Positions 7,010 to 32,114 of a stretch of 64,000 nt of DNA are shown here, piece by piece (within the stretch, counting starts at the first letter, position 1; each line of letters starts with the position of its first letter). The translations under genes were made by a program, and so were the position numbers. The stretch spans positions 1 through 64,000 of the forward strand of contig JAFPVR010000064.1 in the NCBI GenBank assembly GCA_017395245.1. The letters run 5' to 3'. The notes under the pieces were generated by a model. It was not told where the DNA came from, did no database searches, and worked only from the letters and a program-made list of their open reading frames with translations. The DNA comes from Bacteroidales bacterium. Lineage in GTDB: Bacteria; Bacteroidota; Bacteroidia; Bacteroidales; WCHB1-69.

Positions 7010-7087
7010 CGTCTTTTATTCAAATACTGCAAGTGGCTATAATGTAGTCACTTGCAGTTGTTTTCTCATTCAAAAAACATTCAGATT

Positions 7088-7486: not shown

Positions 7487-7494
7487 TTACTGTT

Positions 7495-9897: not shown

Positions 9898-9899
9898 CT

Positions 9900-10637: not shown

Positions 10638-10647
10638 AGAAAGAGTT

Positions 10648-13556: not shown

Positions 13557-13616
13557 AGGTGAAATATTGTATAAAATAATCAATGCTCTCTATCGGCTGT
13601 TATAAAATTTATTGTA

Positions 13617-17600: not shown

Positions 17601-18895
17601 ATGGCACACACAATGTTGAATTTGGTTTTGCCTGTGAAAGCTATGAGTGGCATGGCGTGATCTACACTACATCAGGAACATACACGTATGCCTATAACAA
17701 CGCCGATGGTTGTGCAAGCGTGGATACGCTGCACCTGACGGTGAACTATGGTACGCATAATGTCGAAACCGAGACTGTTTGCGAAAGTTACACCTGGCAT
17801 GGCACGACCTACACCACATCGGGAACATATACGTATGCTTATAACAACGCCGATGGTTGCCCAAGTGTGGACACACTGAAGCTGACTGTGAACTATGGAA
17901 CTCACAATGTTATAAATGAAACAGCCTGCGAGAGTTATACTTGGTATGGGGTGACTTATACGGTATCGGACATTTACACGCATTCATACACGAACACCTA
18001 TGGGTGTGCCAGCGTGGACACGCTCCACCTCACCATCAACAACCCAACGCATACGGCAATTCGTGTTGACACTTGCGACAATTTCACATGGTTGAACGGC
18101 ACGGGACAGAATTATACAACTACTGGAACCTATACCTATGCCCACATAGATGCCAACGGATGCACACAGGTGGACACTCTTTATCTCACTATTTACCCGC
18201 TCCCCATCCCCCTGATTACCGGCGACAATACTTTCTGCCCCGATGAGGTGGCCACCCTCGTTGCTGGCGGCGGCACCGACTACGTGTGGTCCACTGGGGA
18301 AACCACCAACCAAATCCAAGTGGGGACTCCCGACACCTACACGGTGACGGTGACGGATGCCTATGGGTGTTCGGCTGACGCAAGCTTTACAGTGACCTAC
18401 GCCCCGATGAGCCTGGAACAGTTGCCCATTGTTGCCAAGCGCCACGCCGACGGCACTCCCTACATGCTCGTCTACCCCCAGGCCGGTCTCCGCTACCAGT
18501 GGTATAAGGGCGGCGACCCGATACCCGGTGCGACGCAGCAGTATTATGCCCCCGACGGCGGACTGCTGCCCAATACTTCCTACAAAGTGCATGTCGCCCC
18601 CATGGATCCTGACAGCTGCGGCCTTTTCTCCGACGAATGGACTTACAGCGGCACGGCATCCACCAAGGTGCGCATCCTCCCCAACCCCAACAACGGTCGT
18701 TTCAAGCTTCTGCTGCCCGAAGGCACCGTGGACGTGCAGATTCTCAACGCCAACGGCCAGCTGGTGCTGTCGCGGAAGACCGACGGGGCGACCGAACTGG
18801 AAATGGACACCGGCCTCGCCAACGGACTCTATTTTGTGAAAACGTTCCGGAAAAATGGAAGTTCAAATGTTGAAAAATTGATTATTAACCGATAA
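14654..18895 (+). CDS. Giant Cys-rich repeat protein secreted by the type IX system
   Basis: A 1413-residue exported protein. A signal peptide (hydrophobic core LALFLLLAVAGGQLGFAQ) is followed by about twenty repeats of roughly 40-49 residues with the pattern C-[ED]-S-[YF]-x-W, a Thr/Tyr-rich strand, GC, and a closing DTLHLTV strand; two Cys per repeat could form a disulfide. The last 75 residues are a T9SS type A sorting domain (KVRILPNPNNGRFKLLLPEG to the C-terminal KLIINR), which directs export and surface attachment by the por system encoded at 52896-58872. Near-identical 147-bp units at 17045-17926 show recent expansion. It overlaps the previous gene by 25 bases. A surface adhesin or contact protein is the likely role, inferred from architecture. 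Confidence 0.85.
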   Translation: MDKLYQMLALFLLLAVAGGQLGFAQDVNTETIPPVSESTICESALPFTWNDVIFTAAGDSTITLVSSAGADSMVTMRLYITKTDTVHLFDTLCAGETFDSLGFNIVANIDIDTATTFSSAITACDSVTILHLTVHQPSYSTYSHDACDSFTWIDGVTYTESTNTPTITLTNAAGCDSVVTLNLTINPTYFFETDAAICAGDTFSWQRNSYMTEGVYWDSLQTAAGCDSIYKLHLTVNPLPVVTIIATADTVCGGEVVLMANGNTNYSYQWSNGSSNSWISVDSTGSYSVTATDPNECSNTVSKAITVNQPCHTMIDTTICQGESFDFFGESKTSTGVYVNTATATNGCDSIVTLVLAVNPAYYITRTVTICEGESHLFNGELLTQGGTYYDSLETVNGCDSIIELKLTVNPLPKINVVAAPDSIVCEGGSITLIAEVEKTGTYLWNTGETERKITGINSTGTYTVTFTETATGCKNTASKKVIVNPVTYGDTTAVACESFTWYGIEYSSTPEIAPTHTFKNHNDCDSVVTLHLTILHGTHRVFVDTTCESYTWHGIKYDTTGIYIHSDTNADGCLNVDTLHLTIYKPIHQSYTITECESYVWEDGDGHEYTASGTYTYAHEDEHGCWQVDTLHLTINHPTNTAVTVSTCESYYWAANGLTYTTSGNYYYSHEGSNECTQVDTLHLTIKNPTHTSISQSACNSFTWNNTTYTESGDYVQTFQSANGCDSVVTLHLTLYHDTATSWSATGCESFVWNDSTYTESDTYVQYFKTVHGCDSVVTLNLTILHGTHNVEFKTVCESYTWHGTTYTISGTYLYPYTNAAGCASVDTLHLTVNYGTHNVEFGFACESYEWHGAIYTTSGTYTYAYNNADGCPSVDTLHLTVNYGTHNVETETVCESYTWHGTTYTTSGTYTYAYNNADGCPSVDTLKLTVNYGTHNVQIETACESYTWHGTTYTISGTYLYPYTNAAGCASVDTLHLTVNYGTHNVEFGFACESYEWHGVIYTTSGTYTYAYNNADGCASVDTLHLTVNYGTHNVETETVCESYTWHGTTYTTSGTYTYAYNNADGCPSVDTLKLTVNYGTHNVINETACESYTWYGVTYTVSDIYTHSYTNTYGCASVDTLHLTINNPTHTAIRVDTCDNFTWLNGTGQNYTTTGTYTYAHIDANGCTQVDTLYLTIYPLPIPLITGDNTFCPDEVATLVAGGGTDYVWSTGETTNQIQVGTPDTYTVTVTDAYGCSADASFTVTYAPMSLEQLPIVAKRHADGTPYMLVYPQAGLRYQWYKGGDPIPGATQQYYAPDGGLLPNTSYKVHVAPMDPDSCGLFSDEWTYSGTASTKVRILPNPNNGRFKLLLPEGTVDVQILNANGQLVLSRKTDGATELEMDTGLANGLYFVKTFRKNGSSNVEKLIINR
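17045..17926 (+). repeat. Higher-order DNA repeat: two 441-bp blocks of three 147-bp units
   Basis: Repeat units starting at the conserved Cys codon lie at 17045, 17192, 17339, 17486, 17633, 17780 and 17927, exactly 147 bases apart. Units 1-3 and 4-6 are near-identical in the order A-B-C-A-B-C, showing that a three-unit block was duplicated as a whole. The array is in frame, so unequal recombination would change the length of the surface protein without breaking it. Confidence 0.92.
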
Positions 18896-18934
18896 ATTCA
18901 TCAAAAAAAAAAACATGGAAAGAGACGACTTTTA
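18788..18934 (+). repeat. Direct repeat, left copy (sorting domain end to ATG codons)
   Basis: About 147 bases covering the last 36 codons of the giant repeat gene, the intergenic A-run and the first 20 bases of the next gene. A nearly identical copy lies at 20076-20225, with an indel of 3 bases in the A-run. The two copies flank the 422-residue paralogue. Confidence 0.93.
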
Positions 18935-20183
18935 CCTTGTAGCATTATTTATCCTTATAGCCGTTGCCTCGCCTGTTTTGGGTGTGGCCCAGAACAGTGG
19001 CGGTGTGATTATCGACACAACCGTATGCGGGCAATTTGAATGGCATGATTCGACTTATACACTGTCAGATACGCTTGTGTTTAACTCGTTGGACCCTGCC
19101 ATCGGGGACACCACCATATATTTGACAGTGTATCAGAATATCGAAACCTCATGGGAACACACAGCTTGCGAGAGTTACACCTGGCTCGACTCAACTTACA
19201 CGGAGTCGGGTGACTACACGAGGACTTTCACGAATGTCAATGGCTGCGACAGCATTGTCACCCTGCACCTGACCGTGAACTACGGCACACACACTTCCGT
19301 AACGGTGAACGCCTGTGACAGTTTTACTTATCATGGGGTGACGTACACATCCAGTTATTACTATACGCCTCTTGTCTTTCACGACACAAATGATTTCGGT
19401 TGCGTAAATACGGACACGCTCCGGATTAACTTGGCACACTCCTTTTCTAGGGTCAGATACGATACCGCGTGTGTTGCCTACCTCAACTGGCAGGAATATG
19501 ACTGGGAAACGGGAGAATATATTTACCTGGAGTATCCGGGGTTAACGACTTCCGGCATGTATACAACAATAATACCTGGTTATGAGTGGATGACCCCGGA
19601 CTCCGCATGCCCGCTGAGGGACACCCTGTACCTCACTATGCTTGGTACTTTTGAACCAATGGACATCATAGGAGTGATTAACACGGACGGGACGTATGAA
19701 ATGCTGTATTATCCTGATAATAGTTTTAATTTCTATACGTGGTGGAAGAATAGCCAACGTATTGAGGGGGCCCGAAAGTATTATTACGATCCCAGAGAGT
19801 ATGATTTCGAGGAATATTTGGATACGAGTGCCTGCTATAGAGTGGAGATGTTTGGTCAATCAGGGGGAGATTGGGATGACTGCTATAGCCACTCGGCAGA
19901 CTGCTGGAAGCCCTCCATGGTTCAATCCATCAATTCTACAGTCCAGTTCGCCAAGGTGCGCATCCTTCCCAACCCTAACAGCGGACATTTCCGGTTGCTG
20001 CTCCCCGAAGGGACGGCGAACGTGCAGATACTCGATGCCAACGGCCTGACCGTGATGGCACGCACGACCGATGGCGCGACCGAACTGGAAATGGACACCG
20101 GCCTCGCCAACGGACTCTATTTTGTGAAAACGTTCCGGAAAAACGGAAGCTCAAACGTTGAAAAATTGATTATTAACCGATAA
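18915..20183 (+). CDS. T9SS-secreted repeat protein, short paralogue
   Basis: A 422-residue paralogue of the preceding giant protein. It has a signal-like hydrophobic core (LVALFILIAVASPVLGVAQ), two to three of the same Cys-containing repeats (residues about 30-180), a divergent Tyr-rich middle, and a T9SS type A sorting domain almost identical at the DNA level to that of its neighbour. The first seven codons, MERDDFY, are the same as in the ubiquitin-like gene at 20206. They give an acidic instead of the usual basic n-region before the hydrophobic core, so export efficiency is open to doubt. The gene appears to have been created by a duplication whose right end lay in the Ubl gene. Confidence 0.82.
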   Translation: MERDDFYLVALFILIAVASPVLGVAQNSGGVIIDTTVCGQFEWHDSTYTLSDTLVFNSLDPAIGDTTIYLTVYQNIETSWEHTACESYTWLDSTYTESGDYTRTFTNVNGCDSIVTLHLTVNYGTHTSVTVNACDSFTYHGVTYTSSYYYTPLVFHDTNDFGCVNTDTLRINLAHSFSRVRYDTACVAYLNWQEYDWETGEYIYLEYPGLTTSGMYTTIIPGYEWMTPDSACPLRDTLYLTMLGTFEPMDIIGVINTDGTYEMLYYPDNSFNFYTWWKNSQRIEGARKYYYDPREYDFEEYLDTSACYRVEMFGQSGGDWDDCYSHSADCWKPSMVQSINSTVQFAKVRILPNPNSGHFRLLLPEGTANVQILDANGLTVMARTTDGATELEMDTGLANGLYFVKTFRKNGSSNVEKLIINR

Positions 20184-20225
20184 ATTCATCAAAAAAAACA
20201 AAAACATGGAAAGAGACGACTTTTA
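20076..20225 (+). repeat. Direct repeat, right copy (sorting domain end to Ubl start)
   Basis: Right partner of the repeat at 18788-18934. It ends within codon 7 of the ubiquitin-like gene. Recombination between the two copies would remove the 422-residue gene exactly and leave the giant repeat gene followed directly by the Ubl gene. Confidence 0.93.
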
Positions 20226-20526
20226 TCTCAGAGTGCATTACAAGAACAAGACAATCCGTTACAAACTGATTGATCCGAACGCCACCCTGAACGTGTTGAT
20301 GCAGAACCTGCGCCACAGTACGGACGAGAACGGCAAGGCCATCTTCGACCTGCCCAACGTTGACAAGGACGGTGTGGTGGTGGAATATTTCTTCGGCAAG
20401 AAGGACGAGAACGACAATTTCATCATCCTGAACCCGAAAATCGGAAAAACAGAGTGCTGTCTGCGCGACTACAACGTGAAAAGCGGCGACACCTTGGAAG
20501 TGATTATGGATCCCATAGCCGGTTAA
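20206..20526 (+). CDS. Ubiquitin-like protein (beta-grasp) with C-terminal Ala-Gly
   Basis: A 106-residue protein that reads as a beta-grasp ubiquitin-like modifier. It opens with a strand (FYLRVHYKNKTIRYKLID), then a helix (TLNVLMQNLRH), and closes with YNVKSGDTLEVIM, the usual last turn and strand. It ends in PIAG, so a terminal glycine is already exposed and no propeptide needs removal. In such systems an E1 adenylates the terminal Gly and an E2 passes it to a target amine. The E2 gene starts 7 bases downstream and the E1 and JAMM peptidase genes are in the same strand run. The fold call is from pattern and context; overall identity to ubiquitin is low. It lacks internal duplications (not a polyubiquitin). 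Confidence 0.75.
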   Translation: MERDDFYLRVHYKNKTIRYKLIDPNATLNVLMQNLRHSTDENGKAIFDLPNVDKDGVVVEYFFGKKDENDNFIILNPKIGKTECCLRDYNVKSGDTLEVIMDPIAG

Positions 20527-20532
20527 TAACTT

Positions 20533-21132
20533 ATGAGAGAGGTAGATAAATACAAAGACAAACATTTTGTCGGCCGGAACGCCCGGCTGCTGAACGAGTG
20601 GATGTCCATTGACGAAAGGTACATGCATAACCCTGAGGTGAGCTACATCATCCGCAAACGGAACGCGGAAGGGCTGCCCATCATCTATGAGATTATCTTC
20701 AATATCAAGTCGTTCTGCGGGGTGGAGGAACCAGATGCCGACGGTCTGCAGCGACCGCTTTTCCACGACGAGTTCGTGATGCGCATCATTATCCCCAACA
20801 ACTACCCTGGCGTCGACTCGAAACTGGAGTTCAAGTTTCTCACGAAGACGGCTACGGGCATGGAGCTGCCGCACCCCTGGCACCCCAACATCCGCTATTT
20901 CGGGGATTTTGCCGGGCTAGTGTGCCTCAACACCAATGCCTGCGGAAGTTACACCGACCTGTCGTTCTACATTAACCGCGTGGTCTCCTACCTGAAATTC
21001 GAGAAGTATCACGCGCTCAACACGCCGCCTTATCCGCAGGACAACAAGGTGGCCGACTGGGTGCTCGAACAGGCAGAACCCAACGGTTGGATTGAAGAGT
21101 TGCAGAACTACCATATTTCACGGAATTCATAA
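20533..21132 (+). CDS. E2-like ubiquitin-conjugating enzyme (UBC fold)
   Basis: A 199-residue protein with the conserved centre of E2 enzymes: IIIPNNYPG (about residues 86-93) and the LEFKFLT strand, then HPNI (117-120), and 11 residues after Asn119 the sequence GLVCLN with candidate catalytic Cys131. In E2 enzymes the HPN Asn supports catalysis and the Cys carries the modifier as thioester. A PPYPQDN loop and a C-terminal helix follow, as in UBC domains. It lies 7 bases after the ubiquitin-like gene, which is the expected substrate, and 21 bases before the next ATG. No RWD-only degeneration is seen: both HPN and Cys are kept, so activity is expected. Confidence 0.83.
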   Translation: MREVDKYKDKHFVGRNARLLNEWMSIDERYMHNPEVSYIIRKRNAEGLPIIYEIIFNIKSFCGVEEPDADGLQRPLFHDEFVMRIIIPNNYPGVDSKLEFKFLTKTATGMELPHPWHPNIRYFGDFAGLVCLNTNACGSYTDLSFYINRVVSYLKFEKYHALNTPPYPQDNKVADWVLEQAEPNGWIEELQNYHISRNS

Positions 21133-21153
21133 TTGTTTCGAAAAACCAAAAGG

Positions 21154-22578
21154 ATGAAAAAATTACTACTTGTTCTTGTCGCCATATTCGCACTTTCGGG
21201 TGCTTTCGCCCAAAAGGAGGTCCCCCTTTCCTATGTGCTGAATCCCCAGACAGAGATCGCGTTCCCCGTTTATCTCAGAGGGCCTGCGTCGACCTGCCAG
21301 CCGGTCAAGTTGGAGTTGAAGGCGGCCTACCAGCCGGAATACGACATGATTACCGTGAAAATTCGTCCGGAATACGAGAAGCCTATGCTGAAAAAGGAAC
21401 AGTACACGCATCTTTGGTTTCCGATGTCGTGGGGCGCGACCCCATACAATCAGCTCAAGTTCGACGAGCACTTCCGCAGCAACTACCGCTCGAAAGTTAG
21501 TTTGGGTGGCGCGATCAAGGACCAGATTACCGTCAACCAGACCACCGACACCCTCAAGCCGGCTTTCCAGTGCCTGCACGGGGAGTTTGTGAACCAGAAA
21601 GATTTGGATGTCATGCTGTCCTTAAAGGAGAATAAAACCATCGTGTTGAAAATCAAGGCGCATGACAACAAACAGCCGGTTGTGCTGAAAATCAACAATG
21701 TGATCCCGCTTCGGGCCCGATTCAATTTCCCGATGATTTTCAACAAGGCTTTCCTGCAATATATCTCCAACAGTTACACCATCACGTTGCGGCTTCCCGA
21801 GGGCGGTTGCTACGGCCTGAATGAGACCATCAGCCAGTACAAGAAGTGGAATGATGAATTAAAGGTGGATTATCAGAATCTGCTCGACTATCTGATTAAC
21901 AACGGCACTTCGCAGGCGGAACGGAATGCGGCACTGCGCAAGCGACTGGAGATACTCTCCAAGTACGAGCCGGCCCGCAAAGGAATCACCGAGGTTGAAT
22001 GCGAAGAGTTGCTTCGCGAGTATGCCACTTTCCACGAATATTACAACAAAGTTGCCAAAGGGGTGATTTCGGGCGATTCCATCCAGAAAATGATTGCGCA
22101 GATGGACGAACTTATCGACAACATCTCCATTGCCAAAAACAAGGGCGACGGCAGAACGTGCTTGAAATACAAGGCGGAAGCGCAGAAATTCAATGAAGTG
22201 GGCATCGACGCGAGCGTGTATGACGAGTTTCCGGATATGAAGAAGCTGGCAAAACTTTTTACCAGCAGATTGGAGACCTTGAACACGATTACCTGTCCGA
22301 ACAGCGGAAGAAAGGTCGTCACCGGGGGTGGGGGCGGCGGTGGCGGTTGCAACATCGATGTGGAGAAAATCAAGGCTGCCACAAGGGAAATCAACGAGCT
22401 GTTGAACAAGTACCGCGTCAGTAAAAACAAAAACGAGCAGAAGTACTACAGTATTGTGAAAGAGACAGATGCCTATCTGAAGACTTTTTCGGATGCCTGT
22501 AAGAAAAACAAGAAGTACAAGACGATTATCCATCAGTATCAAGATGCCAAACAAACCTATCAGAACGCTGTAAAATAG
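21154..22578 (+). CDS. Periplasmic protein of the T6SS/Ubl locus, unknown family
   Basis: A 474-residue exported protein with a clear signal peptide (MKKLLLVLVAIFALSGAFAQ). The N-terminal 200 mature residues appear beta-rich; residues about 215-380 are helical and charged. A run of nine glycines broken by nothing (near residue 390) precedes a Cys and a C-terminal helical segment of about 75 residues. I recognise no family. It is placed where Bacteroidota T6SS loci encode replacements (TssN, O, P, Q, R) for the TssJ-L-M envelope complex, so a structural role in the periplasm is plausible. The gap to the next gene is 5 bases. Confidence 0.6.
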   Translation: MKKLLLVLVAIFALSGAFAQKEVPLSYVLNPQTEIAFPVYLRGPASTCQPVKLELKAAYQPEYDMITVKIRPEYEKPMLKKEQYTHLWFPMSWGATPYNQLKFDEHFRSNYRSKVSLGGAIKDQITVNQTTDTLKPAFQCLHGEFVNQKDLDVMLSLKENKTIVLKIKAHDNKQPVVLKINNVIPLRARFNFPMIFNKAFLQYISNSYTITLRLPEGGCYGLNETISQYKKWNDELKVDYQNLLDYLINNGTSQAERNAALRKRLEILSKYEPARKGITEVECEELLREYATFHEYYNKVAKGVISGDSIQKMIAQMDELIDNISIAKNKGDGRTCLKYKAEAQKFNEVGIDASVYDEFPDMKKLAKLFTSRLETLNTITCPNSGRKVVTGGGGGGGGCNIDVEKIKAATREINELLNKYRVSKNKNEQKYYSIVKETDAYLKTFSDACKKNKKYKTIIHQYQDAKQTYQNAVK

Positions 22579-22583
22579 TCGTT

Positions 22584-23357
22584 ATGAGAACGAAAACCTT
22601 GTCAGTCATCATTTGGTTCATCCTGTTGGCCGCCATTCCCGCGCGGGCGGTGTCGCAGAGCGGTCATGCGGATTCGATCAAAGCCATCAAGAACGAACTG
22701 AAGACCTATCAGTCGCAGTTGGAGACCATTGAAAGGAATCTCGTTACTTACGAGGATTATGACCTCTATTCCAGCACCTACCGCGACTGCGTGGAGCGGA
22801 TGGATGTTTTCTACGAGGCGAACAAGGCCACCATCGCGTTACAGAACCCGATGCTGTTTGAGATCTGGTCGGGCATCAAGGATTTGCGAGAAGATATTGA
22901 CGAGAAAATCGAGATTCTCAGGAAAGAGGCCGAAGCGGAAGCCCTGGCGCGCAAGTTAGAGACGGAACTGACCCTAACCTCAATCCAATACGAGCAGATG
23001 AATGCGAAGTTCCAGCAACTACCCCAAATGAAACGGAAAATCGCCAAGGATACGCTTGCCGCATTGAAAAGCAGGGATATGGAACTCTATCCGATTTATG
23101 CTGCCAGTAAAACCCAGCACAAAGACCTCATTGCGAGAAACCCTCTCTTGGACTCCCTCTGCGGCCGAATCGACATTTGCCATAAAACCATCAGCGAAGC
23201 GCCGAATATCGAAACCGTCAAATGGGGCGACATTATCTTCAAGGTGACGATTGTGGCTGCCCTGTTGGCGTTTCTGATTAATCTTGTAGTCAGTAAGAAA
23301 AAACTTAATACCCAACTCAATGGAAAGAAAAAGAAAAAATATACCCCGTCCATTTAG
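22584..23357 (+). CDS. Exported coiled-coil protein with C-terminal membrane anchor
   Basis: A 257-residue protein with a signal peptide (core VIIWFILLAAIPARAVSQ), a long helical/coiled-coil region (residues 28-205, rich in E, K and L with heptad spacing, for example the segment around LREDIDEKIEILRKEAEAEA), and one membrane helix near 218-237 (IIFKVTIVAALLAFLINLVV), followed by a lysine-rich cytoplasmic tail. The topology places the coiled coil in the periplasm anchored in the inner membrane. This resembles a T6SS envelope-spanning subunit, but no family is recognised. It sits between the periplasmic protein and the JAMM protein with gaps of about 5 bases. Confidence 0.6.
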   Translation: MRTKTLSVIIWFILLAAIPARAVSQSGHADSIKAIKNELKTYQSQLETIERNLVTYEDYDLYSSTYRDCVERMDVFYEANKATIALQNPMLFEIWSGIKDLREDIDEKIEILRKEAEAEALARKLETELTLTSIQYEQMNAKFQQLPQMKRKIAKDTLAALKSRDMELYPIYAASKTQHKDLIARNPLLDSLCGRIDICHKTISEAPNIETVKWGDIIFKVTIVAALLAFLINLVVSKKKLNTQLNGKKKKKYTPSI

Positions 23358-23361
23358 TGCG

Positions 23362-24987
23362 ATGAGGCGGTGTCTGCGGGTTTTAGTCGCCTGCGTCCTG
23401 TTGCTGTGCACGGCCTTGGTGTCGTCGGCGCAGAGCAAAGGGGTGACCGCTGTGTATGATGCCCAAACAGGCGAACTGACGATTGACAACCAGCAGAATC
23501 TGTGCAAACTCGTCTATGAAGAGGGAATGCCGGCCTCTTTCCAGCGTTTTGTCGGCGATTCCGCTATCATATTGGAGATGGGGAAACAATATGTTGTTCC
23601 GGACATTCTTCCCGAGGAGATGGACGGATTGGAGTCCTTCCAGGTCTATTTCCGCGATGCGCGGGGAAACTACAACCAGCCCTACGCGGTGAGTGTCAAA
23701 GTCATCAATCTGCCGCTCGAAGAGGAGACTGCCGTCGGGTCGGGCAGGAAGCCCTTCTATATCAAATGGTTTGAGTTGGGCAAGTCGCTGATATTTTATG
23801 CGTCGGGAGCTTTGCTGCTGCTCATCGTGCTGGTGGTGGTGCTGTTGCTCTTGCGAAGGAAACGGAAAGTGAAGGATGTCGCCGATGAAGAAACCCAGCA
23901 TGTGATGCAGGTGATTGAAGAGGAGAAAAATGACTTTTCGGTCGGATTGGACTACATCCGGCAGCACCCAGAGCAATATTTTTCCGTGGATATGGAGGAG
24001 TTCAGTCTTGACACGGCGGTGAAGAAGGTCTATTTTTCCCGGGAGGCGGTCAAAAATCTCAACAGCTATTACAAGTCTTTTCTGGAACAACCCGAGCGCA
24101 CCAATGAGACGGGTTGTTACCTGATTGGCGGCTGGGAGACGGTGGACGGGAACGACGAACAATACAACATCAGTGTCGAAGAGATGGTAATTCCCGGCGA
24201 CGATGCGGTGTACGACGAGTATTCGCTCAATTTCGGGCTCAAGATCGGCATCAAGTTGGGCAGTGCCATTCGCAATCTTTGCGAGAAGACAGGACGGGAC
24301 TATGTGCATACGGTGTGGATGCACTCCCATCCGGGGCTTGGGCTGTTTCTCTCCTCCCACGACCTTGTGGTGCAGAAACAGCTTGCCTACCCCGATGCCC
24401 CCAAACGCATGGTGGCCATCGTGATTGACACCAACACCCCGAACTGGCAGATGGCTTTCTTCACAGCGAAGAACAGCGGCGTGATGAACAACAAGGACGA
24501 TTTGCTCAAAACCATCTCCTTTGATGTGCTGAACGAGTGGAGCCGTCACAAAACCGTCGCCACGCAGGCTACGGCGACGGTGGAGAACAGTTTCATCGTC
24601 TCGACGGAGGATTTGAAGGATGAGTTTGCCTTTTCCGCCAAGGCCATCAACCAGATTGATGACGCCATCTATGCGGAAACGCCGAAGGAAGCCTATCCGC
24701 TCTACGGGACTATCCGGCGGAACGGGGATCTCAAGACCCGTATCGTCACCTCCTGCGACGCTGCCGGCGATGACATGGAAATCGGCTGTCTCGTGATGGA
24801 CGCTGACAACGACGAAGCCTTTGACGCGCACCGCTGCGATGCACGGCTCGGCCAAACGGACTTCTGTCTGGTTTACCGGTCGGAGCAGGAGTGCTATTTG
24901 GTCTGGTACAACACCGACCGAAAAATCCGGTTCATCCACACCTCCCTCAAGGAGATGAAGGAGTGGACCCGAAGAAAAAGAATATGA
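23362..24987 (+). CDS. Membrane-anchored JAMM/JAB isopeptidase-like protein
   Basis: A 541-residue protein starting MRRCLRVLVACVLLLC; an upstream ATG at 23320 overlaps the previous gene and adds 14 residues. After a signal-like segment comes an extracytoplasmic part of about 115 residues, one membrane helix (about 144-164, LIVLVVVLLLL core) and a large cytoplasmic part. The latter contains a JAB/MPN domain with a complete metalloprotease motif: H321-x-H323-x7-S331-x2-D334, with upstream Glu273/274 in VEEM. JAMM enzymes remove ubiquitin-like proteins from targets or mature them using zinc. Since the Ubl here already ends in Gly, deconjugation is the more likely role. The last codons overlap the next gene (ATGA). 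Confidence 0.85.
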   Translation: MRRCLRVLVACVLLLCTALVSSAQSKGVTAVYDAQTGELTIDNQQNLCKLVYEEGMPASFQRFVGDSAIILEMGKQYVVPDILPEEMDGLESFQVYFRDARGNYNQPYAVSVKVINLPLEEETAVGSGRKPFYIKWFELGKSLIFYASGALLLLIVLVVVLLLLRRKRKVKDVADEETQHVMQVIEEEKNDFSVGLDYIRQHPEQYFSVDMEEFSLDTAVKKVYFSREAVKNLNSYYKSFLEQPERTNETGCYLIGGWETVDGNDEQYNISVEEMVIPGDDAVYDEYSLNFGLKIGIKLGSAIRNLCEKTGRDYVHTVWMHSHPGLGLFLSSHDLVVQKQLAYPDAPKRMVAIVIDTNTPNWQMAFFTAKNSGVMNNKDDLLKTISFDVLNEWSRHKTVATQATATVENSFIVSTEDLKDEFAFSAKAINQIDDAIYAETPKEAYPLYGTIRRNGDLKTRIVTSCDAAGDDMEIGCLVMDADNDEAFDAHRCDARLGQTDFCLVYRSEQECYLVWYNTDRKIRFIHTSLKEMKEWTRRKRI

Positions 24988-27428
24988 AAAAAGTAAAAGA
25001 TAGAGCTATGAAAAAGCAGTTCGTTTTCTTGATTACAGCTATGTTGCTTCTCGGCGCAGCATGTCAGCAGGGACAGCAGCAGGGACAGCAAAACCCGTCC
25101 GGGACCAGTACATCGGACACCATATCCGTTGTGCAGCTTTCCAAATCCGACAGGGCCGATACGCTCTTCGTGGATTTCAAGATCCTGGATGCTTCGGGCA
25201 AGAAGAAATTTGTTGACAACCTTCACAAAGGCAGTTTCACGGTGTCGGATGTCGGGGCCTTGGGACAGGATATCCCGCCCCAAGTGGACTCCATCATAGA
25301 CATCCGGGAGCGGAAAATCATTTCCGACCAGATTTCCATGCTCTTTTTGGTGGACAGGAGCGGCAGTATTTCGCAGGACGAATTGCTGGAGCAGTATGCC
25401 CAGATATGCCGTATTATTGAGATTCTGCCGAACACCAAAATCTATCTGTCGTTCATGGACAGCACCGTGACGCCGAGTCTGTTGGCCACACAGGAGAACA
25501 TGAAGTTCAAGTTCTTTGAAGAGTTTGAAGTCAAAACCGGCACGGAAAAGTATCTCTACAAGGCGATTATGGCGAAGATGGAGGAGCTTTCCGGCGCAAT
25601 CGGCACGCACTACCCGGAAATCCCCCACAATCCTGCCTTGCAAGACTCCACGCAGAAAATGCTGTTTGTGTTTACGGACGGCCGTGTGGTGAATCCTGAC
25701 GGCACGTTCATCGGTGCCGACTTCTTCAAGTGGAAGGGCGAGATTTGGGACCTGTCGGAAAAGCAGGCGCATTCGGAAATCCCATACGTGCCGATTCACT
25801 GTATCTACATTGGCGACCCGGCTGCCACTGCCAACATTAAGGACGAGATGGAGGCCCTTTGCGCGTCCGCGCCTACCAAAGATGCACTGAAAGGACAGTT
25901 CCACACCCTGTTTGATGTCGCGCAGCTGCAGGAGACTCTGATGGGGACCATCGACTCCATAGCGGCGGACTACAGGCTGGTGCTGCTGAATCCGGACGGC
26001 AAAACATACGACGGCACACAGCACACGCTGACGGTTACGCTTCGCGACAATGCCAACATGCTGGCACAGGGAATCGTGGACTATGCATTTGGCAATCAGC
26101 ATGTTCCGATTGTCGTGGCATCGGATCCGACAAGCACCTCCAACAGCCATACAATTCTTTCAGGATTGCTCTATGGCTTGATTTTCATCTTGCTGGTGTA
26201 TCTGATTCTGCAATATTTGGTCCCGTGGATTCAGTATAAGATGTTCTGCAAGAAATACATTGTGGAATATCGGAGAGGCAGTGGCAATTCATCGGTAGAG
26301 CGGCAGCACTGCTATCACTGCAAGGAACCGTTCGAGGATGGCGACAAGATTGTGGTGAAGTGCGAGCATGTGGTGCATCTGGAATGTTGGGAGGAGAACC
26401 GGAACCGTTGTCCGGAGTATGGCATCCATAACTGCTCCAAAGGTATCCACTACTACAACAAGGAGCATCTCTCTGACCCGCGCAACGCGCCCTACTTCGT
26501 GCCATGGCTGGTCTATGGTCTGGCAACGGGCCTCGTGTCCTGGCTCTTTATGAGGTTGTTCTATTCGGAAATCTTGTTCGCCCCAATGATTACCAAGCTT
26601 GTGGTGCTTATGCGGCCGATTGATGCCCAGATGGGATTAACCGCGTCGTATGTCTCCAAAATCCAGTCCATGTTGCTTTGCGGCCTCTTGCTTGGATTCT
26701 TCATCACCTTGTTTTTCAATTATCAGATTGAGTTCAGGAAGAAGAACCTCAAGATTTGGGGACAGATGCTGTTGCGTGCCCTGATTGGTAGTGCGGTCGG
26801 TTTTGTCGCTTTCCTGCTCGGAGCCATCGTGATTATCCTTTTGGGCAAGAGTGCCAACTGTATTTACACCGACTGGATTCCCTGGGCATTGTTCGCGGTC
26901 GGCATTGCCTTCACCCTCTCGTTCAAGACAGACATCAACCTCCGAAGTGCCTTGATTGGCGGTTTGATTTCCGTGCTGATTAGTTTTGTGGTGCTCTATA
27001 TGGCCACCTTTGCCAAAGAGGTAATTAGCATGTTCAGCTATATGATTTATGCCGCCGGTTTCGGTATCGCTGTCGCGGTGGTGCATTTCGTCTCCGAGAA
27101 ATACTTCCTGCGCATCTCCGGTCCCGTCAAGGAACGCGATATCGCCATTTACAAGTGGATGAGTGTGACGGGTGGTTTCAACAGGGTGACCATAGGCAAG
27201 TCCATCGACTGCATTCTGGAGATGAACTGGGACAATGCCGAGAATATCGCCGACAAGCAGGTGGAGATTTACTTAGAGAATGACCGGCCGTATTGTAAGG
27301 CACTTAGTGACGGGACGCGCCTGGCCAGCGGTCAGATGTTGCAGAAAGGACAGACCATCCTGCTGAACCATGGCACGGAATTCACAATCGGCAATACGTT
27401 GTTTACCTACATCGAAAAAGATAAATAG
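24984..27428 (+). CDS. Candidate membrane E3: vWA, RING-like finger, seven TM helices and FHA-like domain
   Basis: An 814-residue multidomain protein (alternative start 25008, MKKQFVFLI, with lipoprotein-like LGAAC). In order: a vWA domain (about 115-330) with MIDAS DRSGS at 124-128 and FTDG near 230; a membrane helix (391-412); a zinc finger with C443-x2-C446-x13-C460-x-H462-x2-H465-x2-C468-x7-C476-x7-C484, close to a RING-H2 ligand order; six further membrane helices (505-703); and a C-terminal FHA-like beta domain (732-810, with VTIGKS, LSDGTRL and GTEFTIGN). The order predicts an external vWA and cytoplasmic RING and FHA. RING domains recruit charged E2, so this is the E3 candidate; FHA modules in T6SS bind phosphothreonine. 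The last Cys pair spacing (x7) is longer than the classical x2. Confidence 0.75.
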   Translation: MKKVKDRAMKKQFVFLITAMLLLGAACQQGQQQGQQNPSGTSTSDTISVVQLSKSDRADTLFVDFKILDASGKKKFVDNLHKGSFTVSDVGALGQDIPPQVDSIIDIRERKIISDQISMLFLVDRSGSISQDELLEQYAQICRIIEILPNTKIYLSFMDSTVTPSLLATQENMKFKFFEEFEVKTGTEKYLYKAIMAKMEELSGAIGTHYPEIPHNPALQDSTQKMLFVFTDGRVVNPDGTFIGADFFKWKGEIWDLSEKQAHSEIPYVPIHCIYIGDPAATANIKDEMEALCASAPTKDALKGQFHTLFDVAQLQETLMGTIDSIAADYRLVLLNPDGKTYDGTQHTLTVTLRDNANMLAQGIVDYAFGNQHVPIVVASDPTSTSNSHTILSGLLYGLIFILLVYLILQYLVPWIQYKMFCKKYIVEYRRGSGNSSVERQHCYHCKEPFEDGDKIVVKCEHVVHLECWEENRNRCPEYGIHNCSKGIHYYNKEHLSDPRNAPYFVPWLVYGLATGLVSWLFMRLFYSEILFAPMITKLVVLMRPIDAQMGLTASYVSKIQSMLLCGLLLGFFITLFFNYQIEFRKKNLKIWGQMLLRALIGSAVGFVAFLLGAIVIILLGKSANCIYTDWIPWALFAVGIAFTLSFKTDINLRSALIGGLISVLISFVVLYMATFAKEVISMFSYMIYAAGFGIAVAVVHFVSEKYFLRISGPVKERDIAIYKWMSVTGGFNRVTIGKSIDCILEMNWDNAENIADKQVEIYLENDRPYCKALSDGTRLASGQMLQKGQTILLNHGTEFTIGNTLFTYIEKDK

Positions 27429-27434
27429 TCGAAT

Positions 27435-28742
27435 ATGAGATACTTGAAATGCATATTGGTGCTTCTTCCTTGCCTGTGCTGTTTGAATGTTGTATTAGGT
27501 CAGACGGAGGTTACGGGCAAGTATAAGGGGCACATTGTCAAAATGAAGTACTATAGGGGCAGTCCTGACGACATCCAGTATTTGGAATATGGTCTGGTGA
27601 CGGACCTGAACAAGCAAATCAAAAAGCTTGAGGGCGACATAGCCAAAAAGGAGAAGGAACTGGAGAGGTTGAGAAAAAAGCAGCTGGTCTCCGAGAATGA
27701 CGATTTGGAGCGGCAGCTGATGATTAAGGAGCGCGATTTGCTTGCATGTGAGCGCAGTGTCGATTCGCTGAAACGGCGGGTGGTCACGGTTCTTGATTCC
27801 CTGGTGGCGCGTGAGAACATGCTCAACGACTCAGTGAGGGTGCTCCATGCCCAGTTGGATGAGGCACGAAAGACCGGATTTCGGACATTTTCGCCGGGCG
27901 GTCCGTATTTCGGGGTGGGGTACAGCATCGGAATGCCGCTGATATTCAGCTCTCTCCTGAACCAGAAAATGGATTCAGGAGAATCGGTCTGGAAACGCCG
28001 GGTGACGTTTTCCCATCAGGTGGGTATCTATTGGGGCAGCCGTTCTTTGGTGAAAAAGGGATCGCTGTCGTTAGGCATCGGTCTCGAATACAGTCGGTTG
28101 AAGTTTGCGGCAGGCATCGGCCAGCTTTCGGATACCGTTCGTCAGGCTACGGATTCAGACCAGTGCAACTACACGGCCTTCCTCTCTTATCGGAATGTGG
28201 AGGAGTCGGCCACCCTGCATTACATCAGCATTCCGCTTACGCTCTCGTTCGGTCAGCCGTATCGCGACCGGATCAGCGGCTATGCGCAAATCACGCTGAC
28301 CCCCTCTTTCTGTATCGGCTCATCCCTGAGCGCGTCAGGAAATTACAGCCATAAAGGATACTACAGCGACCTTTACGGCAATTCCGTGAATCTCACCTTG
28401 GATGATTTTTCGGCGTTGGGCTTCGGACCGAACCGTCAGGTGTCGGACTGTGGCAAAACCGCCGAAATCAACCGTTTTTTGTTGACTGGACGCTTGGCCG
28501 GCGGTATTTACTTGCCCATGTGCCGGGTCCAGCAGGGCAAAACCTCGCCGTGGGTGTTCAAACTGGGTGTCAAGATGGATTTTGCCATCACGCCGGTGGC
28601 AAAAGGCATGTCTGACGATACGATGCTTCCGGAAGCGACCTATCGGCTGAACCAGTTCAACCTCATGTCGGGCGACGGCTGCCGTTTTGTGAGCTTCGGA
28701 TTAGAAGCTGGAATCATGTATGTCTTTGGTAATAAAAACTGA
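27435..28742 (+). CDS. Outer-membrane beta-barrel protein with coiled-coil stalk
   Basis: A 435-residue exported protein. The signal peptide (MRYLKCILVLLPCLCCLNVV) is followed by a short domain, then a strongly heptad-like coiled coil (about 58-145, QIKKLEGDIAKKEKELERL onward), then alternating hydrophobic/aromatic strands to the C terminus (for example GPYFGVGYSIGMPLIF, VGIYWGSRSLV, GLEAGIMYVFGN), as in OmpA/PorT-like barrels of Bacteroidota. It could be the outer-membrane anchor of the T6SS, a place filled by lipoprotein TssJ in Proteobacteria, with the coiled coil reaching across the periplasm. That role is inferred from topology and from its position between the RING protein and the E1. 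Confidence 0.65.
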   Translation: MRYLKCILVLLPCLCCLNVVLGQTEVTGKYKGHIVKMKYYRGSPDDIQYLEYGLVTDLNKQIKKLEGDIAKKEKELERLRKKQLVSENDDLERQLMIKERDLLACERSVDSLKRRVVTVLDSLVARENMLNDSVRVLHAQLDEARKTGFRTFSPGGPYFGVGYSIGMPLIFSSLLNQKMDSGESVWKRRVTFSHQVGIYWGSRSLVKKGSLSLGIGLEYSRLKFAAGIGQLSDTVRQATDSDQCNYTAFLSYRNVEESATLHYISIPLTLSFGQPYRDRISGYAQITLTPSFCIGSSLSASGNYSHKGYYSDLYGNSVNLTLDDFSALGFGPNRQVSDCGKTAEINRFLLTGRLAGGIYLPMCRVQQGKTSPWVFKLGVKMDFAITPVAKGMSDDTMLPEATYRLNQFNLMSGDGCRFVSFGLEAGIMYVFGNKN

Positions 28743-28747
28743 TAAAA

Positions 28748-29947
28748 ATGGCAAACGAACATAAAGAATGGGGTGCGGGCGTTTTTTCGCTGCTCTCCTG
28801 GTTTAGGCAAGAGAATGTCAAGAAAGCCAAGGTGATGGTTGTCGGGGCGGGCGCTTTGGGCAACGAGGTGTTGAAAAACTTGGCCCTGTTTGGGGTGGGC
28901 AACATCTTCATCGTCGATTTCGACACCATCGAGTACTCGAACCTCACCCGTTCCATCCTCTTCCGGGAATCCGATGCCGACAAGGGGTTGTATAAGGCGG
29001 AAGTCGCCGCAAGGCGCATCCGGGAAATCAACCGGAACATCAACGTGCAGTACATCGTCGGCAATTTGAGCTCGGATGTCGGGTTGGGTGTCTACAAGCA
29101 AATGGACGTGGTGATTGGTTGTTTGGACAGCCGTTTGGCGCGACTCCAGCTGAACCGCCAGTGTATGCGCGCCGGTGTGCCTTGGGTTGATGGCGGCATC
29201 GAGGATCTCAACGGCGTGGTGAAAGTCTTCAAACGCGGCGTGAACTGTTACGAATGCGGGCTTTCGGACACGGCCAAGCACAACCTTTTCCAGAAAATGT
29301 CGTGCGCGGGTGTGGCCAAGCGCAACGAGGATGCGGGCCGCATACCCACGACACCCGTCATAGCCTCCATCATTGGGGCCATACAGACCCAGGAGGCGAT
29401 GAAACTGCTTCATCCAGAGGAACTTTACAAGGGAAACTTGGCCTCCCTGTGTGGACAGTGGTTCCACTACGAAGGTATGCACAATAACGTGCGGGTTTAC
29501 AAATCTTCGGCCTACAATAGCGACTGTCCCTCTCATGAGTATTGGAAGCCGGTGTTCAAGATTCCGCAGCTGTCGGCCGACATCACGGTGGAGGCATGCA
29601 TCGCTCTGCTCAAGGATCTGCTCAATGTGGAGAGTGTGGAAATCAATCTTCGCAACGACCGTTTTGTGGACAAAATCGTGACGCGCAACGACAACCAGTG
29701 CTTCCGCCCGATGCTTCCCGAGTCCAAGATTCCGGACTATATCGACTCCGACCCGTTGCTCTACCGCCGCCTCAAGATGGATTTGAACCAGAACACCTAC
29801 GAGAATATCGACGAGGAGTTCCCCTATCCGCATCTCACGCTTCGAGAGATTGGCATCCCGTACTATGACATTCTCCAAATCACCACGGAGTCTGGCTATT
29901 TCTATGTGGAGCTGACCAAAGACGAGAATCGATATCCGTTTGTGTAA
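28748..29947 (+). CDS. E1-like ubiquitin-activating enzyme (ThiF/UBA family)
   Basis: A 399-residue ThiF-fold protein. It has the nucleotide-binding VVGAGALGNE (31-40), an acidic pair in VDFDTIEYSNLTR (56-68) with the conserved Asn65/Arg68, Lys83 in GLYKAEVAA, and DSRLARLQLN near 127-136. CYEC (167-170) could bind zinc together with Cys260. Cys186 in MSCAGVAKR, followed by RIPTTPVIASIIGAIQTQEA, is the candidate catalytic cysteine, as in MoeB/UBA-type enzymes. The C-terminal 130 residues form a separate domain that might recruit the E2 or Ubl. It should adenylate the C-terminal Gly of the 20206 protein. It stands directly before the baseplate genes, 16 bases from the next start. Confidence 0.87.
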   Translation: MANEHKEWGAGVFSLLSWFRQENVKKAKVMVVGAGALGNEVLKNLALFGVGNIFIVDFDTIEYSNLTRSILFRESDADKGLYKAEVAARRIREINRNINVQYIVGNLSSDVGLGVYKQMDVVIGCLDSRLARLQLNRQCMRAGVPWVDGGIEDLNGVVKVFKRGVNCYECGLSDTAKHNLFQKMSCAGVAKRNEDAGRIPTTPVIASIIGAIQTQEAMKLLHPEELYKGNLASLCGQWFHYEGMHNNVRVYKSSAYNSDCPSHEYWKPVFKIPQLSADITVEACIALLKDLLNVESVEINLRNDRFVDKIVTRNDNQCFRPMLPESKIPDYIDSDPLLYRRLKMDLNQNTYENIDEEFPYPHLTLREIGIPYYDILQITTESGYFYVELTKDENRYPFV

Positions 29948-29963
29948 CGTTTGTCCAGACATT

Positions 29964-30761
29964 ATGAGACTCAACGAGCAGCATATTCCAATTGGGGAGT
30001 TGAAAGCCGAAACATGGCTTAACACCTGTCTTCCGGACGCTCTTCCGCCCCATGTCAGCACGAAAGGAATCTTCTACAGCAACTATAGTGAGGATCTGTT
30101 GGAGGTAGAGGCGGCCGGTGACGGTTCCCGTCGCGTTACGCTGTCACGCGATGGGCTGTTCCATCTTCTACCGGAAGCTCTTTTCGTGGACGAGAACCGT
30201 CTGCAGGATCCTAAAAAGAAGAACATGCCATTCAAGCCCGAGAAAGAGCGGATTCTGAACTTTTTCGTTCCTTTTGACACGGAATACTTCAAAACCAGTC
30301 TCGAACTGGACAAGACGATAAGCGATATAGAGCGCGGCACGGTAGACTTGTTGCTGGAAACGCTCTGTGGCATAGACATGCGGACGGTTCAGAACCCGCT
30401 TGTTCGGAAAGCCGCTCCGTTTTTGTTGCAGGCGGCGGAAATACGTGGGGATTTCACGCTGCTCTCTCGCCTGATGACTGCAATTTCCGGATATAATACA
30501 GACATTCAGCCGGTTATGCGCCGGGTGACATTGTCGTCGGGACGGCGCATAAGCCGGACGGAGATCAGGGTCGTTTTTAACATTCCCGGCCTGAGCAATG
30601 CGGAGTACAACCGGCAATATGACGCGATGGGGGAATTTGTGGCGTTTATGGCGGAATGGTTTTTTCCGGCCGACATGCCCTGGCAATACGCCATTAAGGA
30701 CAAAAACCATCCGTTTAAGCTCGATGGCTCAATTACGTTGGATTATAATACCTATCTTTAA
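29964..30761 (+). CDS. Probable T6SS baseplate protein (TssG-like position)
   Basis: A 265-residue soluble protein beginning MRLNEQHIPIGELK. I see no strong motif; segments such as VTLSRDGLFHLLPEALF (about 60-76) and the C-terminal LSNAEYNRQYDAMGEF region are compatible with a tail-wedge protein. It is encoded directly before TssK, TssE and TssF, with a gap of 6 bases to TssK, and TssG is the one conserved baseplate component otherwise missing, so it is proposed as the TssG counterpart. This is based on context more than on sequence. The frame opens at 29940 inside the E1 gene, but the ATG at 29964 is the natural start. Confidence 0.5.
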   Translation: MRLNEQHIPIGELKAETWLNTCLPDALPPHVSTKGIFYSNYSEDLLEVEAAGDGSRRVTLSRDGLFHLLPEALFVDENRLQDPKKKNMPFKPEKERILNFFVPFDTEYFKTSLELDKTISDIERGTVDLLLETLCGIDMRTVQNPLVRKAAPFLLQAAEIRGDFTLLSRLMTAISGYNTDIQPVMRRVTLSSGRRISRTEIRVVFNIPGLSNAEYNRQYDAMGEFVAFMAEWFFPADMPWQYAIKDKNHPFKLDGSITLDYNTYL

Positions 30762-30767
30762 AATATT

Positions 30768-31676
30768 ATGCCTAAATTGAACAGAATAGATTGGAAGCGA
30801 GGCATGGAAATCATGCCGGAAACGTTCATTGGCGCGGAGGAATACCATGACCAACTCAGTATGATAAACCGCCAGCTCGTGGTGCCGCTTGCATACGGGC
30901 TCGTGCCTCTGCAGGAATTCGAACTGAAATGCACGGTTCTTGACCAGCACATTATACTTGAGAAAGTGAAAGCCACCATCATGAACTGTGACGGACAGCT
31001 CATTCATCTTACCGAAGGTGCGAAAATTCCGTTGCCGAGGGATGCCCATGGCATCTATTATCTGGCCGTTTCCATCGAGGGTGACAAGCATATAGAGGAA
31101 AATGGGGTGCCGTATCTCGAAAAGGAGTACCGTTATCAAATCATAAATTTGCTGAATCCGTATACGCCATCGCTGTTCCCCATCTTGAAATTGCATGCCG
31201 CTCACGGAGATTGGGAGGATATGGACTTCATCCCGCCTTGCTGCACGGTTAGCGCACATCCGGAATTTGCGAGAGTGTCTGAACTTTGCATACAATGGTT
31301 GAAGAAAATACTCTCCATTGCAGGCCAGAAAGATTATGGAGACCTTTGTTTTCACTTGGGCAATCTGTTGATTGACATGGCCAATACAACACAATGTGGC
31401 ACCTCTTCCATGCTGATTACCAGTCTGAAGAAGGCCGTGCTCATCCTTTTGACGTATCATTTGCTTGACGAGTCCGACCAGGAGCTGCTGACGAAGGCAG
31501 AAGAGTTCGTCTGGCGCGATTATAACCCGAATACCCTCTTCGAGACCATGCAGGATGCGATGTCCCTGATCCATTGCTCCATCGAATTTCTCGAACGTGC
31601 CGAGCCGAAGCCCGCGCCTGTGGTGGAGAAACCCAAGCCGGAGCCGGAAGAGGAGGAACTCACGTATATGCTGTAA
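30768..31676 (+). CDS. tssK: T6SS baseplate protein TssK
   Basis: A 302-residue protein whose N terminus matches the TssK signature: IDWKRGMEIMPETFIGAEEYHDQ corresponds to the W-x2-GM-x-L-x-P-x2-F of TssK, the shell domain related to phage receptor-binding proteins. It is followed by the LVVPLAYGLVPLQEFEL strand pair. TssK links the baseplate wedges to the membrane complex. At about 300 residues it is shorter than the proteobacterial protein of about 440, as usual in Bacteroidota. The C-terminal end is Pro/Glu-rich (residues 280-300). In a system without TssL/M, its membrane partner must be one of the new envelope proteins in this locus. Confidence 0.75.
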   Translation: MPKLNRIDWKRGMEIMPETFIGAEEYHDQLSMINRQLVVPLAYGLVPLQEFELKCTVLDQHIILEKVKATIMNCDGQLIHLTEGAKIPLPRDAHGIYYLAVSIEGDKHIEENGVPYLEKEYRYQIINLLNPYTPSLFPILKLHAAHGDWEDMDFIPPCCTVSAHPEFARVSELCIQWLKKILSIAGQKDYGDLCFHLGNLLIDMANTTQCGTSSMLITSLKKAVLILLTYHLLDESDQELLTKAEEFVWRDYNPNTLFETMQDAMSLIHCSIEFLERAEPKPAPVVEKPKPEPEEEELTYML

Positions 31677-31679
31677 ACG

Positions 31680-32114
31680 ATGAATATCAAAATACCTTTT
31701 CAACTGGTAAACGGAAGCGTGGAATTGGAGACGGATGTGAAAAAGTCCGTCGACAAGTTCATCGATTTGTTGGTGGCTACCCCGTTCGGTCAGTTCAAGG
31801 CAGATCTCGATTTCGGGTTTGTCTTCAAGAACTACCGGTTTCAGAATTTTGATGAAAAGAGGCGCACGGTGGCGTATTTGAAGGAAGAGGATTCCATGTG
31901 CGATTACAAAATCACGGGCACCAGCAAGAACCCCAAAAATTTCGCACACGCCCTGAAACGGAATATAGAAAGTTATGAGCCGCGTATGCTCGTCAGCGAG
32001 GTCACAATGGATTACAATGCCAAGAAACACAATGTCAAACTGTTGATTTTGGGCCAAATCAAAGGGGACAAACCGCAACCCTACAGCCACGAGATCAACT
32101 TCTATGTATGGTAA
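31680..32114 (+). CDS. tssE: T6SS baseplate protein TssE (gp25-like)
   Basis: A 144-residue protein of the gp25/TssE lysozyme-like wedge family. It contains the region ELETDVKKSVDKFIDLLVATPFGQF followed by ADLDFGFVF (about 18-56), equivalent to the helix and the R/K-F-x-PDFG-type turn of gp25, and a C-terminal beta segment. TssE is a wedge component that nucleates sheath assembly. It starts 3 bases after tssK and overlaps tssF by 7 bases. Confidence 0.82.
   Translation: MNIKIPFQLVNGSVELETDVKKSVDKFIDLLVATPFGQFKADLDFGFVFKNYRFQNFDEKRRTVAYLKEEDSMCDYKITGTSKNPKNFAHALKRNIESYEPRMLVSEVTMDYNAKKHNVKLLILGQIKGDKPQPYSHEINFYVW

Follow-up and report, generated by a model that had tools for sequence, protein, structure and literature searches.

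A ubiquitin-like set inside a type VI secretion system subtype of Bacteroidales

Introduction

What does a ubiquitin-like modification set do inside a protein injection machine? The question is raised by a stretch of 64,000 nucleotides, hereafter the window (positions 1 to 64,000 of contig JAFPVR010000064.1, assembly GCA_017395245.1), from the draft genome (3.78 Mb, 129 contigs) of a Bacteroidales bacterium of the WCHB1-69 lineage. In it, genes for a ubiquitin-like protein (Ubl), E1- and E2-like enzymes, a JAMM isopeptidase-like protein and a RING protein lie within a type VI secretion system (T6SS) locus. Bacterial ubiquitin-like systems with an E1, an E2 and a peptidase have so far been discussed mainly as antiphage defence. 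For the T6SS side, the T6SSiii study PMC10781749 makes TssN a hub in the inner membrane to which TssK docks, a step for which its cytosolic ubiquitin-like domain is proposed, and gives the TssNQOPR complex, or part of it, for all T6SSiii found, the only type in the phylum.

Our analyses point to an apparently new T6SS subtype with a predicted internal ubiquitin-like cascade. We conclude that this membrane-anchored cascade belongs integrally to the machine and that docking is likely controlled through its tagging of some part of the baseplate. The identity of the parts, their linkage to the T6SS, the lack of tssN, the constraint on the Ubl and the junction between the E1 gene and tssG are established by sequence, fold prediction and comparison.

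A ubiquitin-like set packed with baseplate genes

The genes for Ubl, E2, the 21133 and 22584 products, JAMM, RING, the 27435 product, E1, TssG, TssK, TssE, TssF and an NlpC/P60 hydrolase follow one another head to tail on one strand, with successive gaps of 6, 0, 5, -38, -4, 6, 5, -8, 6, 3, -7 and -7 bases (Table 1). The sequence-only reading, which had placed the Ubl, E2, JAMM, RING and E1 genes at 20206-29947 on one strand between the tip genes and the baseplate genes for TssK, E and F, was borne out: these genes are packed with tssG-K-E-F. Sheath, tube, spike, baseplate and ClpV genes all occur in this one locus. TssE, TssF and TssK fall below the cut-offs of their own models, their identity being backed by neighbours and profiles, and TssG gives a 99.5% profile match to TssG of tssN-type systems, one of which has Pfam TssG. 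Other genes fill the 10.3 kb between the PAAR-like gene and Ubl.

When 84,980 species genomes were scanned with the E2 alignment, 165 relatives came up, and all locus counts below refer to the best 80 of these 165. The E2 of the window has UBE2K as its closest solved relative, and its relatives match UQ_con (PF00179), below threshold in one search; its HPN motif and Cys131 are invariant in the family. The key adenylation residues of the E1, whose closest solved relative is the SUMO E1, are likewise invariant; a search of its conserved C-terminal part for a ubiquitin-fold domain returned no credible solved relative.

The Ubl is predicted to adopt a beta-grasp fold, in line with the sequence-only reading, which had expected this fold for the Ubl and a UBC fold for the E2; the latter is seen by match only, to UBE2K and, in relatives, to UQ_con. 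EccD5-like and talin-like matches rank as high as ubiquitin, and hhalign of the Ubl family against human ubiquitin reached only 36.5%; we regard the predicted fold as stronger evidence for a beta-grasp Ubl than this figure. The protein ends in Gly in 78 of 80 loci, two Ubl open reading frames (ORFs) ending in another residue. One might therefore take the Ubl for a non-conjugated structural subunit resembling EccD or YukD domains, the enzymes keeping some other role, as the high-ranking EccD5-like and talin-like folds and the two ORFs lacking the Gly would allow; such a subunit is highly improbable against the C-terminal Gly of the other 78 and the invariant key residues of E1 and E2.

The same Ubl protein, without a single difference, is found in five congeneric species, with genes differing from that of the window at 32 to 42 of 321 bases, and at these loci the 21133 product and TssK are only about 50% identical. 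Judged from these comparisons, the Ubl is under strong constraint, as is ubiquitin, and as expected where one protein has to fit several partners. Its predicted trypsin remnant on a lysine is SGDTLEVIMDPIAG.

Two further parts are predicted membrane proteins. The JAMM protein, nearest to Rpn11 among solved structures, is predicted to sit in the inner membrane. For the RING protein we chose the start ATG 24984, where the gene overlaps the stop of JAMM; this choice yields a signal sequence with a lipobox Cys. Prok-RING_1 is the nearest Pfam family of its RING, and all eight RING metal ligands are present in 47 of 47 alignment rows. The JAMM metal ligands and the RING-like membrane protein noted earlier from the sequence are both there in the window. 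Of the remaining products, the 21133 family is found in 78 of 80 loci by hidden Markov model (HMM) and the 27435 family in 16 of 80. A single ORF covers the 22584 and RING positions in three loci (L077, L088, L106). A count of 148 for the 22584 family, together with its apparently conserved Cys and His, was discarded as an artefact, the profile having drawn in RING proteins through these three fused ORFs.

Conservation of the set with the secretion system

Locus counts were made in two ways, by tblastn and by HMM on complete ORFs, E2 being present in 80 of 80 by selection; as loci were trimmed at 10 kb or at contig ends, little can be read from the low numbers for TssC (14) and ClpV (4). By tblastn, the 80 loci contain Ubl in 80, RING in 77, E1 in 73, TssG in 71, TssK in 72, TssE in 59, TssF in 59, PAAR in 65 and JAMM in 19; by HMM, E1 in 72, TssK in 57 and TssF in 60. 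At least one T6SS gene is found in 78 of 80 loci, and one other than PAAR or ClpV in 77; the two loci without any are stretches of only 11.5 and 5.1 kb. The link between the set and T6SS genes is conserved over many genera. By their titles the 80 loci come from Bacteroidales or from genera and families of that kind, a few being labelled no more closely than Bacteroidia or Bacteroidetes, and among the named carriers are Xylanibacter ruminicola D31d, Bacteroides mediterraneensis An793 and Mediterranea massiliensis.

Two gene orders exist. Where both enzymes are found (72 loci), E1 comes after E2 in 18, the order of the window, and before it in 54, these latter running E1-tssG-K-E-F-Ubl-E2-21133-22584-RING in Prevotella, Bacteroides, Alistipes, Parabacteroides and others. 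In either arrangement the same junction is kept: E1 lies directly upstream of tssG in 70 of 70 loci with both genes (gap -214 to 46 bases, most often -4), and tssG and tssK are adjacent in all 56 loci measured, at most 102 bases apart.

The sequence-only reading had called this a complete pathway with deconjugation, which stands for the clade of the window and is weakened elsewhere: no JAMM was found at loci of the E1-before-E2 group, and one locus with the order of the window (L051) also has none. With JAMM detected in just 19 of the 80 loci, deconjugation seems optional. This bears on a possible role in turnover, in which the set would mark parts of the sheath, tube or baseplate for transfer to ClpV or a protease after firing. 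The likeness of JAMM to Rpn11 and the ClpV gene in the locus speak for it, but T6SS loci lacking the set have ClpV too, the RING protein is predicted in the membrane and most loci have no JAMM that we could find, and we consider turnover quite unlikely.

Absence of tssN and history of the sheath protein

As judged with the Pfam model PF17555, tssN is missing from T6SSs with the Ubl set. The genome of the window gave no match; 14 control genomes gave none either, but the model finds 7 of the 392 genomes of an order-wide sample. In that sample TssC occurs in 16 genomes, TssN over the cut-off in 7 (14 at E 0.001) and E2 in 6; TssC coincides with TssN in 6 and with E2 in 5, and TssN with E2 in none, one genome having TssN without TssC (G436) and one E2 without TssC (G115). 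The association of E2 with TssC has a p of 3e-7. A whole-genome check of 50 E2-carrying genomes, drawn from the 80, found tssN over the cut-off in one, B. mediterraneensis, on a contig of 89.9 kb as against 69.8 kb for the contig with the Ubl locus; this species appears to possess another T6SS, one that includes tssN.

A tree was built from 29 TssC proteins; in it, the 18 encoded at Ubl loci and that of G322 make up one side of a 100/100 branch, the program warning of long branches, L027 and L131 among them. The Ubl loci alone as one side are rejected (approximately unbiased test, p 6e-5) because G322 nests among them. The G322 locus (L130, L131) encodes two Ser/Thr kinases, FHA domains and a peptidoglycan-binding protein; no set member was found in it by HMM, and no E2 or tssN in the genome. 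One origin and one replacement would be the simplest reading of this tree. With linkage kept over many genera and TssC in one clan, the earlier view of a coherent ubiquitin-like set belonging to the T6SS is upheld.

TssC from two other genomes, G316 (L128, L129) and G383 (L132), lies on the tssN side of the tree, with no tssN found by the Pfam model; these T6SSs possibly have a divergent membrane complex.

An antiphage module of the Bil/Bub kind, tagging phage tail parts and placed in a T6SS locus by chance, would draw on the bacterial E1/E2/Ubl/JAB sets known from defence, on the PADLOC E1-E2 models, which match only the ThiF part of the E1, and on the relatedness of T6SS parts to phage tails. 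Near-fixed linkage and overlaps with tssG, a single TssC clan, the lack of tssN and the absence of any PADLOC match for Ubl, E2, JAMM or RING make such a module improbable. Searches of phages and viral contigs found no E2, a result with little to say on defence by hosts, and a comparison of one locus (L060) for a plasmid home gave no match.

Relatives near extracellular contractile injection systems

Among 296 genomes sampled across the phylum, two from a single genus outside the order, G602 and G696, have E2 relatives, and G796 gave a weak match. In both (L153, L154 and L159; L155, L156, L161 and L162), genes for E1, Ubl, E2, JAMM and a vWA/FHA protein like the RING family lie together, the Ubl ending in VPG or VPGGK, and adjoin genes for a PAAR protein and an ATPase-like protein (nSTAND by Pfam in G602). 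A phage-type sheath is encoded on the same contig, about 21 and 45 kb from the set; for G602, Pfam confirmed an eCIS_core protein as well as tube, gp25 and spike proteins. Neither genome gave a TssC match, in a search whose controls also gave none. These sets suggest that what the systems have in common is contractile injection and not TssK itself.

The same loci bear on a role in cargo handling, in which tagging by the set would help effectors or the tip to be loaded, chaperoned or delivered, the Ubl itself perhaps being delivered too. The Ubl gene of the window comes after PAAR and a candidate effector stretch, a PAAR-like gene occurs in 65 of 80 loci, and in G602 PAAR and the eCIS_core protein adjoin the set. 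In the larger group of loci, however, Ubl comes after tssF and not after tip genes, E1 stays before tssG, and RING and JAMM are predicted membrane proteins, so that we hold effector tagging to be unlikely.

A proposed role at the baseplate

Given the absence of tssN, the adjacency of tssG and tssK, the adjoining E1, and a free Ubl with its enzymes and two predicted inner-membrane partners, we infer tagging of the baseplate at the membrane: in these T6SSs lacking tssN, the set likely couples the Ubl, at the inner membrane, to some part of the baseplate, thereby controlling docking and assembly of the machine, a reading to which we give a probability of about 0.5. Possibly the set itself performs, or else regulates, the task of the known membrane complex. 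In this scheme, the E1 would adenylate the C-terminal Gly of the Ubl and hand the Ubl on, through a thioester, to Cys131 in the E2. The charged E2 would be recruited to the membrane by the RING protein, whose vWA domain would lie in the periplasm and whose RING and FHA domains in the cytosol; this protein would also respond to an envelope or phosphorylation signal. The Ubl would then be transferred to a lysine of TssG, TssK or a neighbour, and the tagged baseplate would dock on membrane proteins, the tag acting as a licence for docking. In the clade of the window the JAMM protein would remove the tag; in loci where no JAMM was found, the tag might be lasting or removed by something else.

Several observations weigh against this baseplate reading. 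Conjugation, thioester and target are all putative. No JAMM turned up in 61 of the 80 loci, or in 58 of 77 if only loci extending to the RING gene are counted, and 85 of the 165 E2 relatives fall outside the 80 loci examined. In the order sample, five genomes have TssC with neither E2 nor TssN (G316, G322, G332 on a 6.6 kb contig, G335 as a fragment, and G383), and the exclusion of E2 and TssN among the 16 TssC genomes, with p 0.09, is weak alone. Two of the 50 E2-carrying genomes, those of L087 and L100, give 19-bit tssN matches, short of the 30.3 needed to pass the cut-off. Comparison of the set with TssN, O, P, Q and R gave a best hhalign probability of 3.9%, with alignments (from tssN-type loci) of only 4 to 10 rows, one row duplicated, and a replacement of TssNQOPR would be read from absence and position alone. 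Homology of the JAMM, RING, 21133, 22584 and 27435 families to these proteins was accordingly dropped, hhalign having given nothing. The RING region of G602 is without its first CxxC and reads DPIT there, as a U-box would. Moreover, we know of no TssK in extracellular contractile injection systems (eCISs), and a TssK target therefore cannot be the common rule.

A last point of this kind comes from close relatives. Of 104 genomes of the family, 9 have E2 and G091 gives a further, weak match; TssC is present in 8 and both are present in 7. The eighth TssC genome, G040, has no E2 in its assembly, but its contig breaks within a gene related to the repeat gene just upstream of Ubl in the window, at the point where Ubl would follow. 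The sequence-only reading had singled out T6SS-bearing relatives devoid of the Ubl genes as telling; in this sample no close relative with the same T6SS showed a demonstrated absence of the set.

A bolder version of the baseplate reading, which seems to us rather unlikely, would have the ubiquitin-like domain of TssN become a free, conjugatable docking tag, a transenvelope vWA/RING/FHA ligase tag the baseplate at the inner membrane and also form the core of a second, unrelated membrane complex, and the same cassette anchor or license eCISs in other Bacteroidota. If true, a covalent modifier would be an assembly part of an injection machine.

Other features of the locus

The gene content is listed in Table 1. 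The NlpC/P60 hydrolase is a candidate opener of the cell wall for the membrane complex; PMC10781749 leaves open how the wall is breached. Three ORFs between PAAR and the repeat genes (9849-14678) are candidate effector and immunity genes, one of which (10585-13380) has amphipathic-helix matches and a weak zinc phospholipase-like match. Two exported-looking repeat proteins (14654-18895 and 18915-20183) inside the T6SS locus share the same last residues, and the second has a type IX sorting domain. About 50 bases around its start codon (codons for MERDDFYL) recur at the Ubl start with a small indel. The contigs of four congeners (G018, G022, G030, G040) end near this region.

Table 1. Genes of the T6SS locus and of the ubiquitin-like set, in window coordinates
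Product	Position	Strand	Basis or remarks
ClpV	2223-4661	+	Pfam
TssB	4649-5197	+	by position; no Pfam match
TssC	5206-6573	+	Pfam 1.8e-110
Hcp/TssD, two copies	6617-7009, 7052-7486	+	Pfam TssD 3e-27 and 9e-31
VgrG	7459-9516	+	Pfam VgrG domains
DUF4280 PAAR-like	9523-9897	+	Pfam 2e-31
Ubl, 106 residues, beta-grasp, C-terminal ...DPIAG	20206-20526	+	fold prediction, family conservation
E2 (UBC family), 199 residues, HPNI 117-120, predicted catalytic Cys131	20533-21132	+	conservation, profile matches
Exported protein, C226 and C290 invariant in family	21133-22578, likely start ATG 21154 (TTG 21133 mechanical)	+	conservation, hydropathy
Protein with hydrophobic N-terminus, helical middle, C-terminal transmembrane segment	22584-23357	+	hydropathy
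JAMM/MPN isopeptidase-like	23320-24987	+	N-terminal signal, predicted periplasmic part of ~110 residues, transmembrane segment about 152-184, then JAMM
RING protein, 814 residues: lipobox, vWA, transmembrane segment, RING, helical membrane bundle, FHA; predicted E3	24984-27428	+	Pfam, conservation, fold, hydropathy
Exported protein, coiled coil then possibly outer-membrane barrel	27435-28742	+	judged from sequence only
E1: ThiF adenylation domain, CxxC...CxxH site, Cys186 candidate catalytic, conserved C-terminal part	28748-29947	+	Pfam, conservation
TssG	29940-30761, start TTG 29940 or ATG 29964	+	no Pfam match itself; profile match
TssK	30768-31676	+	NCBIfam TssK 8.4e-9, below cut-off; profile 98.7% with TssK of tssN-type loci
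TssE	31680-32114	+	Pfam gp25 1.4e-5, just below cut-off; relatives in other T6SS loci
TssF	32108-33925	+	Pfam TssF 9e-4, just below cut-off; relatives in other T6SS loci
NlpC/P60 peptidoglycan hydrolase, overlaps TssF	33919-34422	+	PF00877 7.5e-21

Comparison with known systems

Searches of the open-licence literature (including PMC4714493, PMC8102008, PMC1779556, PMC3482391, PMC11354881, PMC8894135 and PMC10598620) returned no description of such a T6SS, though a subscription paper or preprint may exist; the words ThiF, RING and FHA do not occur in the main text of PMC10781749. The finding goes against the reading of TssNQOPR as the only membrane complex of the phylum, wires a ubiquitin-like set into the injection machine of common gut and rumen genera, and offers a testable case of ubiquitin-like control over a phage-tail-like machine that may bear on the origin of eukaryote-like ubiquitin cascades.

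With T6SSiii, known from B. fragilis, the Ubl-set systems share related sheath, tube, spike and baseplate genes and the profile matches of TssG and TssK; in addition, according to PMC10781749, TssN has a ubiquitin-like domain and TssR, a possible lipoprotein, a vWA-like domain. Unlike T6SSiii, they have no tssN between tssG and tssK, and they have E1, E2, Ubl, RING and JAMM; against TssO, P, Q and R, for which the alignments are small, no profile match rose above 4%. Two other papers provide further parallels. The archaeal E1/E2/RING cascade (PMC5654768) shares with the window a eukaryote-like E1-E2-RING set in a prokaryote, whereas the RING of the window sits in a vWA-TM-FHA protein and its set in a T6SS locus. 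The secreted ubiquitin of B. fragilis (PMC5705921) is also a ubiquitin-like protein of gut Bacteroidales, but it is described as a secreted antagonist, and the Ubl of the window belongs to an E1/E2 set in a T6SS.

The antiphage systems Bil (BilA-D) and Bub are ubiquitin-like, and Bil is reported to tag a phage tail part. Like them, the window combines a Ubl, an E1, an E2 and a JAB-type peptidase in one operon; the systems described here differ by the RING/vWA/FHA membrane protein, by a JAMM that is predicted to be membrane-bound or was not found in the locus, and by the T6SS setting. Prokaryotic RING operons were reportedly treated by Burroughs in 2011, and parts of the operon type seen here may be among them. 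Finally, proteobacterial T6SSs have the threonine phosphorylation pathway PpkA/PppA/Fha, which resembles the set of the window as a post-translational switch with an FHA protein in a T6SS locus; here, Ubl conjugation would be predicted to replace phosphorylation, and G322, of the same TssC clan, has kinases instead.

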